Source: Archaeoglobales archaeon
GTDB taxonomy: Archaea > Halobacteriota > Archaeoglobi > Archaeoglobales > Archaeoglobaceae
Length of the DNA stretch: 64,000 nt
Direction: 5' to 3'
Assembly (NCBI GenBank): GCA_030055525.1
Contig: JASFYJ010000007.1
Span: 18,750 to 82,749 of the forward strand
The position numbers and the translations under genes were made by a program. The notes beneath the pieces were generated by a model that had not been told where the DNA came from, searched no databases, and worked only from the letters and a program-made list of their open reading frames with translations. Shown here one piece after another: positions 1,504 through 44,098 of the stretch. The stretch's first letter is position 1, and each line of letters starts with the position of its first letter.

Positions 1504-2777
1504 AGTTCGAAAACGTGATCATCGGTAATTCTTCCGCAGCTATTGGATGCGTTGAGGCGATAAGAGAGATAGACAGCGATGCAGATATACTCATGGTTTC
1601 CGCTGATCGACAGGCGTATTCAAGAGCTCTGATTCCCTATTACCTCAGAGGTAAGATTGAATTAGAGGGTTTGCTTTACAGAAGGCAAGAGTTCTTTGAG
1701 AGGTTAAACGTTGAAACAAAGTTTGGCATTAGAGTTGAGAGAATAGACACCAACAAGAAGGAAATAACGCTCGAAAATGGCGAGATTGTTGGATACGAGA
1801 AGCTCCTGATCGCAACTGGCGGAAAACCGTTCATTCCAAAAATTGAAGGGCTGAATGCTCGCGATTTCTTCACTTTCCAGACGCTCGAGGATGTGCTAAG
1901 AATAAAGGAAGCGGTTGAAAAGGCTGAGAGCGCTGTAATTCTTGGAGCTGGCATAATAGGGCTGATGCTTGCGGAAGCGCTTGTTGAGAAGGGATTAGAA
2001 GTTAAAGTTGTGGAACTCGCGGACAGAGTTCTCGCTCCAGTGCTTGATAAAAAGACTTCTGAGATTGTGCAAAGGAAATTCGCTGAAAAAGGTGTTGAAA
2101 TTCTGCTGAACAACACGATCTTAGAGGTGCGAAGGAACGAAAAGAAAATACTAAGGCTAAAGGATGGAAGGGAAATAGAGACGGATCTACTCGCAATAGC
2201 AGTAGGTGTTGTTCCAAACGCTGAATTGGCAAAGAATGCGGGAATAAAGGTAAACAGAGGAATAGTTGTGAACAAAAGAATGGAAACCTCTGTAAAAGAC
2301 GTTTACGCTGCGGGAGACTGCGTTGAAATATTCGACAGCATTGCCAAAACGAGTAGACCAATACCCCTCTGGATCACAGCCTACATGGGCGGAAGAATTG
2401 CGGGATTCAACATGAGCGGGATTCCAAGGGATCTTAGCTTTGTTACCGCAATGAACTCGATGCACTTCTTCGACTACTACATAATCACCGCTGGCTTGAG
2501 CAATTCAGAAGATGGCGAAGTGATTTCGAGACTTGAAGGTGAGAACTACAGAAGGTTCGTGCTAAGAGATGGAAAGATCGTTGGTTTCATAATCGCTGGA
2601 AAAGTTGGAAGGGCGGGTATATTCACGAGATTGATGGAAGAAGAATTGGAGGTTTCTGGATTTAAGGATAAGCTCCTTAACGATAACTTCGGCTATGTTG
2701 ACATTCCTGAAGCAATTAGATGGAATTTGCTCAAGGAAAAGGTAAAGTTTGGGGTGGTAAGGGATGCGTGGATTTGA
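1500..2777 (+). CDS. FAD/NAD(P)-dependent pyridine nucleotide-disulfide oxidoreductase
   Basis: A 425-residue flavoprotein of the NADH oxidase / nitrite reductase NirB-like family. The N-terminal FAD fold has the relaxed motif IIGNSSAAIGCVEAI, a second Rossmann motif VILGAGIIGLMLAEAL near residue 145 binds NAD(P), and VYAAGDCVEI near residue 265 is the second FAD-binding motif. No redox CxxC disulfide of the lipoamide dehydrogenase type is evident. It sits between the ferredoxin gene and the glutaminase domain gene, and its end overlaps the next start by 14 nt. The likely role is to feed NAD(P)H electrons into glutamate synthase, replacing the classical GltD subunit; this is inference from context. 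Confidence 0.85.
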   Translation: MKFENVIIGNSSAAIGCVEAIREIDSDADILMVSADRQAYSRALIPYYLRGKIELEGLLYRRQEFFERLNVETKFGIRVERIDTNKKEITLENGEIVGYEKLLIATGGKPFIPKIEGLNARDFFTFQTLEDVLRIKEAVEKAESAVILGAGIIGLMLAEALVEKGLEVKVVELADRVLAPVLDKKTSEIVQRKFAEKGVEILLNNTILEVRRNEKKILRLKDGREIETDLLAIAVGVVPNAELAKNAGIKVNRGIVVNKRMETSVKDVYAAGDCVEIFDSIAKTSRPIPLWITAYMGGRIAGFNMSGIPRDLSFVTAMNSMHFFDYYIITAGLSNSEDGEVISRLEGENYRRFVLRDGKIVGFIIAGKVGRAGIFTRLMEEELEVSGFKDKLLNDNFGYVDIPEAIRWNLLKEKVKFGVVRDAWI

Positions 2778-42199: not shown

Positions 42200-42719
42200 T
42201 TTTTTATCGTTGTTTGTTGAAAATATTTTTGAGGCTAAAAATATGTAATCTCCTAAAGAATTTTGAAGGGATCATGTACAAAAAAGCGTGGAAAAATCGA
42301 AATGATTGAGATCCGAACCAAACATAATGAAGCTCCTAAAAGCGCTTAAATCAAATCCATAGAATTTTATGAATTCTGCGATAGAGTACTTCAAGAAGAT
42401 GTCGCTTTGCCTGAGAGTTTCAAGTTCCTAATGGTTATAGCATGGGAGTTCGAAGGAGTTGTAAATAGTGTGTAATTCCAGCTATGATAGGCGTTAAAAA
42501 TCGAGAAAACGGCGAAGAAAAGATAATTGAATGTTACCGGCGGTGCTTCGATTGTTTCAGCTTTTAGAGAGGCTATGAGGGGGCTCAAAAAATTTAAACC
42601 TGTTTTTTATATTTTTATTCTAGAAACAATTCCACAACCTTCAAACCGAAAATCAAGCCATTTAGAAAATCGAGAATTCAAGAAAGGCAATTCGACTGTT
42701 TTAAAACTTGAAAATAAAC
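42200..42719. other. Gene-poor stretch before tRNA-Lys
   Basis: These 520 bases carry no intact gene that I can support. The first part has a T-rich run after the DUF1646 gene. The middle, about 42327-42475, has an open stretch that looks like decayed coding sequence. The last part (42490-42719) is A-rich, with a short open frame in each of several phases but no ribosome binding site or homology that I recognise. No repeat or hairpin stands out. Confidence 0.4.
42327..42475 (+). pseudogene. Possible frameshifted remnant of a small gene
   Basis: ATG at 42327 begins MKLLKALKSNP and stops at TAG. A second phase from 42350 is open to the TAA at 42473-42475 and reads IEFYEFCDRVLQ, then VALPESFKFLMVIAWEFEG. 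A one-base frameshift near 42357 would join the two into one protein-like chain of about 48 residues with a hydrophobic-amphipathic pattern. I recognise no family. It may instead be chance. Confidence 0.25.
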
Positions 42720-42793
42720 CGGGCCGAGAGGGATTTGAACCCCCGACTGCGGGATTAAGAGTCCCGCGCTCTTCCTGGCTAAGCTATCGGCCC
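42720..42793 (-). tRNA. tRNA-Lys (CTT)
   Basis: Folded by hand on the minus strand: acceptor stem GGGCCGA/TCGGCCC with discriminator G, anticodon stem CGGGA/TCCCG with loop CTCTTAA (anticodon CTT, reading AAG), and T arm with TTCAAAT loop. No CCA and no intron. A minus-strand CATAAATATCC (about 42818-42828) is centred about 29 nt upstream and probably is its TATA box. Confidence 0.96.
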
Positions 42794-42826
42794 TCCGTTT
42801 TGGATAACAAATTCAGGATATTTATG

Positions 42827-42888
42827 CTTGTCGCTCTGCCTACCGACCCGAGTTCATGCTTTTCACCCGGGTGTGAGAGGCAGAGCTA
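42827..42888 (-). ncRNA. H/ACA guide RNA candidate (single hairpin)
   Basis: On the minus strand a 9-bp stem GCTCTGCCT (42886-42878) pairs with AGGCAGAGC (42841-42833). Inside is a pocket (CTCAC on the left, CGGT on the right), a second stem ACCCGGG/CTCGGGT (one G-T pair), and an apical loop with two TGA motifs as in a K-turn/K-loop. After the basal stem comes G then ACA (42831-42829), 14 nt from the top of the pocket, as expected for archaeal H/ACA RNAs. Its target would be of the form ACCG-UN-GTGAG. A promoter is found upstream. Confidence 0.75.
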
Positions 42889-42910
42889 GGTAAAGTTATT
42901 CATGGGACTT

Positions 42911-42921
42911 TAAAAACTTTC
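42911..42921 (-). promoter_or_regulatory. TATA box of the H/ACA RNA candidate
   Basis: On the minus strand AGTTTTTAAAG is centred about 28-30 nt upstream of the base of the hairpin at 42886. This spacing would start the transcript at about 42888, just before the basal stem, and supports an independent small RNA gene. Confidence 0.5.
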
Positions 42922-43000
42922 GTTGTTTTGTTGATAGGTCAGCATTCTAACAACGTAGAGGTTAAATAATGATAAGTCTAAAAACATTTCGGTGATATTC

Positions 43001-43342
43001 ATGTTTGAAAACGTCATAGCGGATATATTCAAGTTAAATGGTGTAAAAGGAGTATATATAGCTGACATGGATGGCAACCTAGTAGAGTCTGAATCGACAA
43101 GAGAAGATGATGAGATATTTGCAGCGCTTGTTGTCGAACTTTTCAAGAAATCAAGCGATATAATGGCTAAGATCTCAAACGGGGATGTTAACTTTTTAGT
43201 TGTTGAAAACTCTAAGGATAGAGTTATCATCACAAAGGCCAGCGAGTTAATATTAGGTGTTTTTTCGGAAAGTAGTGTTAATTATGGTTTGCTTAAGATA
43301 GAGATCAAAAAAGCAGCTGAAAAGATAGAGGCCTTGGTTTGA
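43001..43342 (+). CDS. Roadblock/LC7-like domain protein
   Basis: A 113-residue protein with a roadblock/LC7-like alpha-beta fold: LNGVKGVYIADMDGNLVESE is the first hairpin, followed by helix AALVVELFKKSSDIM and the strand NFLVVENSKDRVIITKAS. Roadblock proteins of the MglB type usually regulate small GTPases, but none is adjacent. The start is ATG 43001, preceded by GGTGAT 4 nt upstream; GTG 42992 is the alternative. It sits 9 nt before the DUF2226 gene, so both form one operon, and that link is the main clue to its role. Confidence 0.75.
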   Translation: MFENVIADIFKLNGVKGVYIADMDGNLVESESTREDDEIFAALVVELFKKSSDIMAKISNGDVNFLVVENSKDRVIITKASELILGVFSESSVNYGLLKIEIKKAAEKIEALV

Positions 43343-43351
43343 GGTGTCAAA

Positions 43352-44098
43352 ATGCTCATCCCGAAAGGAGAGAAAGTGGAGATAAGAAAGAACTGTAGGG
43401 TTTCCGAAATTTTGGAGGAGTTAAGCAATTCAGCCTTTACTGGCTACGTTGAGTTCTACTATAAGTACGGAGAATTATCCAAGGGTCAGCTTGTACTTAG
43501 AAATGGAAATTTAATTGCCGGAAGTGTTGAAAAAATAGTTTCTAAAAAAGAAATTCTGGGAGATAAAGCATTGGATGAGCTTAAAAAAATAGAGAACTGC
43601 GTAGCAGAAATTTATGTTTTAGAAGATGAAAAAGTTGAAAAAGCATTAAACTGGAACAAGAATGCTCTGATACGCCTTGAACCGAAAATAACTGTAGCTT
43701 CCGATGTTAATAACTCGAAAACCGAAACAACAATAGATCTAACACATTATAGGGGAAAAGAAATTGCTGCTCCGGATAGGAAAAAGATACTTGAAAAATA
43801 TGGGATAAGAGAGCCAACGCCAGAGGAGATCGATGCCCTAATTAAGAATGCATTCGATGAAGTTCCACTGGAGATGAATAAAGAGGAGGTAGTAAATGAG
43901 GTCAGGAAGATCATCGAGGATCGATTCGGAAAATTATCTAAAAAACTACTGGAAATATTAGATGAATGCAAAACCGTGGATGAATTGGCAAAGAATTTTG
44001 AGTTATTAGAAAGAGAAGCTAGAAAACTCTCTTTGTTTGTACCAAGAAAGAAAATAGATGAAACTCTAGAGGAAATTAGGCAGATTATCGGATCTTGA
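43352..44098 (+). CDS. DUF2226 family protein
   Basis: A 248-residue protein of a family I associate with Archaeoglobi. The N-terminal half (about 1-110) reads like a DUF4388-type sensor domain (EILEELSNSAFTGYVEFYYK, GQLVLRNGNLIAGSVEKI). A central acidic stretch leads to IREPTPEEIDALIKNAFDE and a C-terminal helical part (about 180-248) with FGKLSKKLLEILDECKTVD. Function is unknown. It follows the roadblock gene closely, and the end overlaps the convergent protease gene by 14 nt. Confidence 0.75.
   Translation: MLIPKGEKVEIRKNCRVSEILEELSNSAFTGYVEFYYKYGELSKGQLVLRNGNLIAGSVEKIVSKKEILGDKALDELKKIENCVAEIYVLEDEKVEKALNWNKNALIRLEPKITVASDVNNSKTETTIDLTHYRGKEIAAPDRKKILEKYGIREPTPEEIDALIKNAFDEVPLEMNKEEVVNEVRKIIEDRFGKLSKKLLEILDECKTVDELAKNFELLEREARKLSLFVPRKKIDETLEEIRQIIGS

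Follow-up and report, generated by a model that had tools for sequence, protein, structure and literature searches.

An unannotated single-hairpin box H/ACA guide RNA gene of the Archaeoglobales, orthologous to Pab91

The minus strand of the window (i.e., the whole stretch of 64,000 nucleotides of Archaeoglobales DNA that was analyzed) contains a hairpin RNA gene and, 35 nt beyond the ACA box of this RNA, a tRNA-Lys(CTT) gene (Table 1). On the plus strand, a Roadblock/LC7-domain gene and, after it, a DUF2226 gene (42992–44098) are divergent from the hairpin RNA. An open reading frame of 120 aa (42527–42889, plus strand) runs antisense across both tRNA-Lys and the hairpin RNA; it had no Pfam match and was taken as spurious. 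A gene caller might mistakenly annotate this open reading frame.

Table 1. Features of the guide RNA locus and its neighborhood, listed in the direction of the minus strand (positions refer to the window).
Feature	Position	Strand	Basis
Roadblock/LC7 gene, divergent from the H/ACA RNA	42992–43342	+	
BRE + TATA box (ACGAAAGTTTTTAA) of the guide RNA	42909–42922	−	Ungapped alignment, 45 loci
H/ACA guide RNA (Pab91 orthologue, probably Afu-46 too)	42829–42886	−	58-nt core, lower stem through ACA; Rfam RF02795, covariation
Lower stem, 5′ strand GCTCTGCCT	42878–42886	−	Fold; compensatory changes at 7/9 pairs
5′ guide UCUCAC	42873–42878	−	Complementary to GUGAGA 3′ of the target U
Upper stem, 5′ strand ACCCGGGU, and start of K-loop GAAAAGCAUGA (UGA...UGA, L7Ae-binding motif)	42853–42872	−	GNGA...UGA invariant in 36 orthologues
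Upper stem, 3′ strand ACUCGGGU	42846–42853	−	Fold; covariation
3′ guide CGGU	42842–42845	−	Invariant in 36 orthologues; complementary to ACCG 5′ of the target U
Lower stem, 3′ strand AGGCAGAGC	42833–42841	−	Fold; covariation
ACA box	42829–42831	−	14 nt from upper stem; invariant in 36 orthologues
tRNA-Lys (CTT), neighbor outside the guide RNA	42720–42793	−	ARAGORN; Rfam RF00005, 65.9 bits

Read along the minus strand from 42886 to 42829, the RNA consists of GCTCTGCCT, CTCAC, ACCCGGGT, GAAAAGCATGA, ACTCGGGT, CGGT, AGGCAGAGC, G, and ACA, in this order. Pairing of GCTCTGCCT with AGGCAGAGC forms a lower stem of 9 bp and pairing of ACCCGGGT with ACTCGGGT an upper stem of 8 bp; the two strands of the pocket are UCUCAC and CGGU, the apical K-loop is GUGA AAAGCA UGA, and the 3′ end is G-ACA. 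The first U of the 5′ guide UCUCAC may alternatively serve to close the lower stem. The ACA box is located 14 nt (4 + 9 + 1) from the closing pair of the upper stem, and the rule for archaeal H/ACA RNAs is a distance of 14–15 nt (PMC4652768). The other hallmarks of archaeal box H/ACA RNAs are also present, i.e., a hairpin with lower stem, pocket, and upper stem, an apical K-turn/K-loop (UGA/UGA with tandem G-A), and a pair of guide strands that match rRNA on either side of an unpaired U-N; the RNA is an archaeal H/ACA guide RNA of the canonical single-hairpin type, and its gene had been unannotated until now. A preliminary description of this DNA had claimed an unannotated H/ACA guide RNA on the minus strand, with a 9-bp basal stem, an internal pocket, a second stem, two TGA motifs at the apex, and ACA at 14 nt; each of these elements was recovered in the fold (the TGA motifs as the UGA/UGA of the K-loop), and the identification agrees with the Rfam Pab91 model, with covariation, and with an exact rRNA target, as described below. 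The hairpin has a minimum free energy of −31.2 kcal/mol (z = −5.28), and none of 200 dinucleotide shuffles reached an equally low value. A strict archaeal H/ACA descriptor matched the window only once, at this hairpin, and gave no match in 60 dinucleotide-shuffled windows, counts that represent an estimate of frequency and not a blind test, as the descriptor was composed after the motif was known.

At the Rfam gathering thresholds, a search of the whole window called two tRNAs only, and not the guide RNA. With an E-value threshold, the locus matched Pab91 (RF02795) over the full length of the model, with 37.5 bits and an E-value of 8e-6 in 301 bases, and a search of the whole genome with the same model found this locus as its sole match (E = 1e-5). 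The lack of an Rfam annotation is thus explained by the score of 37.5 bits, which falls under the curated Pab91 cut-off of 71 bits. Four other Archaeoglobi orthologues scored between 33.6 and 49.1 bits against the Pab91 model and a Thermococcus orthologue scored 77.9 bits; the Archaeoglobi and Thermococcales RNAs form a single continuous family, and within it only the Thermococcales branch scores above the Rfam cut-off. The RNA in the window is a Pab91 orthologue beyond the present boundary of the Rfam family, and its failure to reach the cut-off is a matter of threshold.

The 23S rRNA of the same genome (contig C11) contains TTTAGACCG-T-C-GTGAGACAGG, which matches both guides exactly. This target (ACCG-UC-GUGAG) pairs with the guides in nine of nine Watson-Crick pairs and occurs once in the 16S and 23S rRNAs of the genome, where the next-best U reaches five pairs; when the guides were permuted, 28 of 3000 versions found a full match anywhere. 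The target U aligns with residue 2590 of a 2,901-base E. coli 23S gene; this gene is three short of standard numbering here, the known A2602 being found at 2599, and the target therefore corresponds to E. coli U2593, nine bases 5′ of A2602. The predicted target U lies in the peptidyl-transferase region of 23S rRNA and is the same U as that experimentally proven for Pab91, U2685. A U at this position is known to be a pseudouridine both in P. abyssi (U2685) and in A. fulgidus (U2639) (PMC6138745, PMC4652768), so that the search for ACCG-UN-GTGAG in 16S and 23S rRNA proposed in the preliminary description ends in an exact match at a known archaeal pseudouridine site. Pab91 of P. abyssi is reported to pseudouridylate U2685, in the peptidyl-transferase region of 23S rRNA, in vivo as well as in vitro (PMC6138745, PMC4652768).

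When 36 sequences (34 distinct rows) were aligned, both stems showed evidence of covariation. Standard pairs were found in 89.3% of the stem cells, and 58 cells showed double-sided changes, as compared to 16.6 ± 3.3 in shuffles and to 13 or fewer double-changed cells in a control in which the partner strand was slid by 1–3 columns; double changes were seen at 10 of 16 pairs. The conservation of the stems in relatives, another proposed check, is thus upheld by compensatory changes. Invariant in all 36 orthologues were the 3′ guide CGGU, the GA/UGA letters of the K-loop (GNGA...UGA), and ACA; the K-loop pattern was required for collection of the named orthologues and not for those found by similarity or with a covariance model. 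The innermost (ninth) pair of the lower stem, U-A, is peculiar to the copy in the window and is unpaired in 32 of 34 rows; by eye, many relatives have an outer pair as the ninth pair instead, which makes their fold 10/5/9-like, similar to that of Pyrococcus (classification of PMC4652768). The 5′ guide reads CCCAC for CTCAC in seven of 45 distinct orthologous loci (L016, L018, L019, L021, L111, L115, and L116), which belong to Geoglobus-like genomes, a putative A. veneficus genome, and an outgroup family. Targets checked in relatives of this type (G010, G031, and G014) were unchanged or near-identical, and the CCCAC guide therefore breaks one guide-target pair; the calculated energy of the 5′ part of the duplex changes from −4.7 to −1.7 kcal/mol.

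The RNA is present in congeners and family members, as found with blastn. A scan of the genomes of 84,980 species for exact patterns found 34 stretches, comprising named Archaeoglobaceae/Archaeoglobi and Thermococcus as well as three matches evidently due to chance; the pattern ACCGNTNNGTGAG forms no part of these results. The three matches, in a planctomycete, a gammaproteobacterium, and Nocardioides (L059, L061, and L063), were rejected because by eye they lack a paired lower stem. A covariance model (R1) built from the 36 orthologues had a single significant match in the window (79.3 bits, partly circular as the window sequence is included in the model) and exactly one match per genome in 48 of the 59 genomes of the class, representing 12 of 16 genera. 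R1 found nothing further in the other genomes of a 295-genome phylum sample, a result that is weak for distant groups, in which relatives could be missed owing to filters and divergence. Eleven genomes of the class presented no match, including all six of genus g4 (G012, G023, G032, G065, G066, and G067) and two of family f2 (G036 and G037), and a laxer search left this unchanged. The 23S target site is unchanged in G032, one of the genus g4 genomes, which together with the result of the laxer search may indicate that the guide was lost or replaced in genus g4 and family f2; a genus without a match that keeps the target offers a natural experiment on whether this modification can disappear.

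When 45 upstream regions were aligned without gaps and anchored on the start of the RNA, an AAA peak was found at −34 to −32 and a box of only T or A at −29 to −25; these peaks represent the archaeal BRE/TATA arrangement, a promoter conserved at a fixed distance from the RNA. Conservation 3′ of ACA was low. The preliminary description had placed a promoter box upstream of the RNA and assigned the downstream tRNA-Lys a box of its own; the former is borne out by the BRE/TATA conservation across the 45 loci (between about −34 and −25 relative to the stem), and the latter agrees with a TATA-like CATAAATATC found by eye about 22–33 nt upstream of the tRNA.

The neighboring tRNA raises the possibility of a shared transcript. 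In a congener (G002; locus L118, G002:C29:21500-25500, about 1898–2035, minus strand), ACA ends 4 nt before tRNA-Lys(CTT), a gap short enough to make a shared transcript likely there and suggesting co-transcription of guide and tRNA-Lys. For the genus, we consider it possible, at somewhat less than an even chance, that the guide is linked to tRNA-Lys, with guide and tRNA in G002 forming one transcription unit in which RNase P, by cleaving at the 5′ end of the tRNA, would also generate the guide 3′ end. Dicistrons of tRNA and C/D sRNA are known in plants, and an arrangement of this kind, if true, would be the H/ACA counterpart of these and of the archaeal ones. The archaeal tRNA-C/D sRNA dicistrons have been described (PMC7994747); a limited literature search found no report of an H/ACA-tRNA dicistron. 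By extension, the hairpin in the window could itself be part of a dicistronic H/ACA-tRNA-Lys precursor, be freed by tRNA 5′ processing (RNase P), and guide the same site. While the 4-nt spacer of G002 is too short for a separate TATA box and a tRNA-Leu(CAA) is found 35 nt downstream of the RNA in another genome (G006), the spacer in the window is 35 nt and carries a TATA-like box that is suitably spaced from the tRNA, and no adjacent tRNA was found in the loci scanned from other genera; such a precursor in the window is thus unlikely. A position directly upstream of a tRNA and the presence of a K-loop could also be expected of a cis-acting element (i.e., a terminator, attenuator, or L7Ae-bound leader) of the neighboring tRNA or genes with no guide function, and K-turns in mRNA leaders are also bound by L7Ae (PMC6298567). 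However, the neighbors vary among relatives that retain the RNA and its promoter, and the invariant parts of the RNA (the 3′ guide in the pocket and ACA) match a known rRNA modification site; with the covariation, the wide spread of orthologues, and the absence of the motif from the shuffled windows, these observations led us to reject a cis-regulatory hairpin as highly improbable. A chance hairpin was rejected as having a negligible probability, given the stem covariation, the orthologues in 48 of 59 class genomes, and the lack of motifs in 60 shuffled windows.

The fold, its conservation and covariation, the promoter, and the exact and unique rRNA target described above make it almost certain that the locus encodes a box H/ACA guide RNA with a single hairpin, an orthologue of Pab91 and very probably of Afu-46 that is predicted to act at the equivalent of U2593. 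By analogy with characterized relatives, the RNA would, in this organism, be transcribed from its own BRE/TATA promoter, with L7Ae binding the K-loop and Cbf5-Nop10-Gar1 binding the lower stem and ACA. The pocket would pair with 5′-ACCG-UC-GUGAG(A)-3′ of 23S rRNA and leave the U at the position of E. coli U2593 unpaired, and Cbf5 would isomerize this exposed U to pseudouridine. The value of the finding is mostly one of annotation, i.e., the Archaeoglobaceae gain a previously unannotated and very well supported guide RNA, and the Rfam Pab91 cut-off (71 bits) is seen to exclude an entire class of orthologues; modest leads are the linkage to a tRNA and the patchy pattern of loss.

The relationship with Afu-46 was assessed in a genome (G060) that we take to be A. 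fulgidus DSM 4304 and that contains one orthologue (413565–413622). The positions published for A. fulgidus are L1364, L1970, L2601, L2639, and L2878, with L2639 guided by Afu-46 (PMC4652768). Among 61 numbering offsets tried on G060, all five positions were U at one only, and at this offset L2639 is the predicted target; Afu-46 and the RNA in the window therefore guide the same U (A. fulgidus U2639) as far as the consistency of the published numbering indicates, and the orthologue in G060 very probably represents Afu-46. An alternative target for Afu-46, a U located 13 nt upstream (E. coli U2580 position), is contradicted by the published numbering, and a loop sequence considered for the crystallized Afu46 RNA is absent from G060; this alternative was rejected. 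The crystallized chimeric Afu46 RNA represents the 10/6/9 fold class (PMC4652768), whereas the RNA in the window reads as 10/5/9-like.

The orthology to Pab91, and very probably to Afu-46, was not part of the preliminary description; given this orthology, the RNA is not a new kind of RNA. The check with a covariance model that had been proposed there was upheld, as the independent Rfam Pab91 model picks out the locus. The RNA links Pyrococcus Pab91 and, very probably, A. fulgidus Afu-46 in a single family of orthologues that act next to the peptidyl-transferase center. The RNA in the window shares with Pab91 of Pyrococcus/Thermococcus the single hairpin, the lower stem, the UCUCAC and CGGU guides, the K-loop, ACA, and the same target U; it differs in its stems, which are replaced throughout via paired changes, and in its K-loop, which is 2 nt longer (UGAAAAGCAUGA against GGAGAGGUGA). 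Hvo1 of Haloferax/Haloarcula, which acts on 23S U2621, is likewise an archaeal H/ACA guide near the peptidyl-transferase center (PMC4652768), but both its target U and its guide differ from those of the RNA described here.
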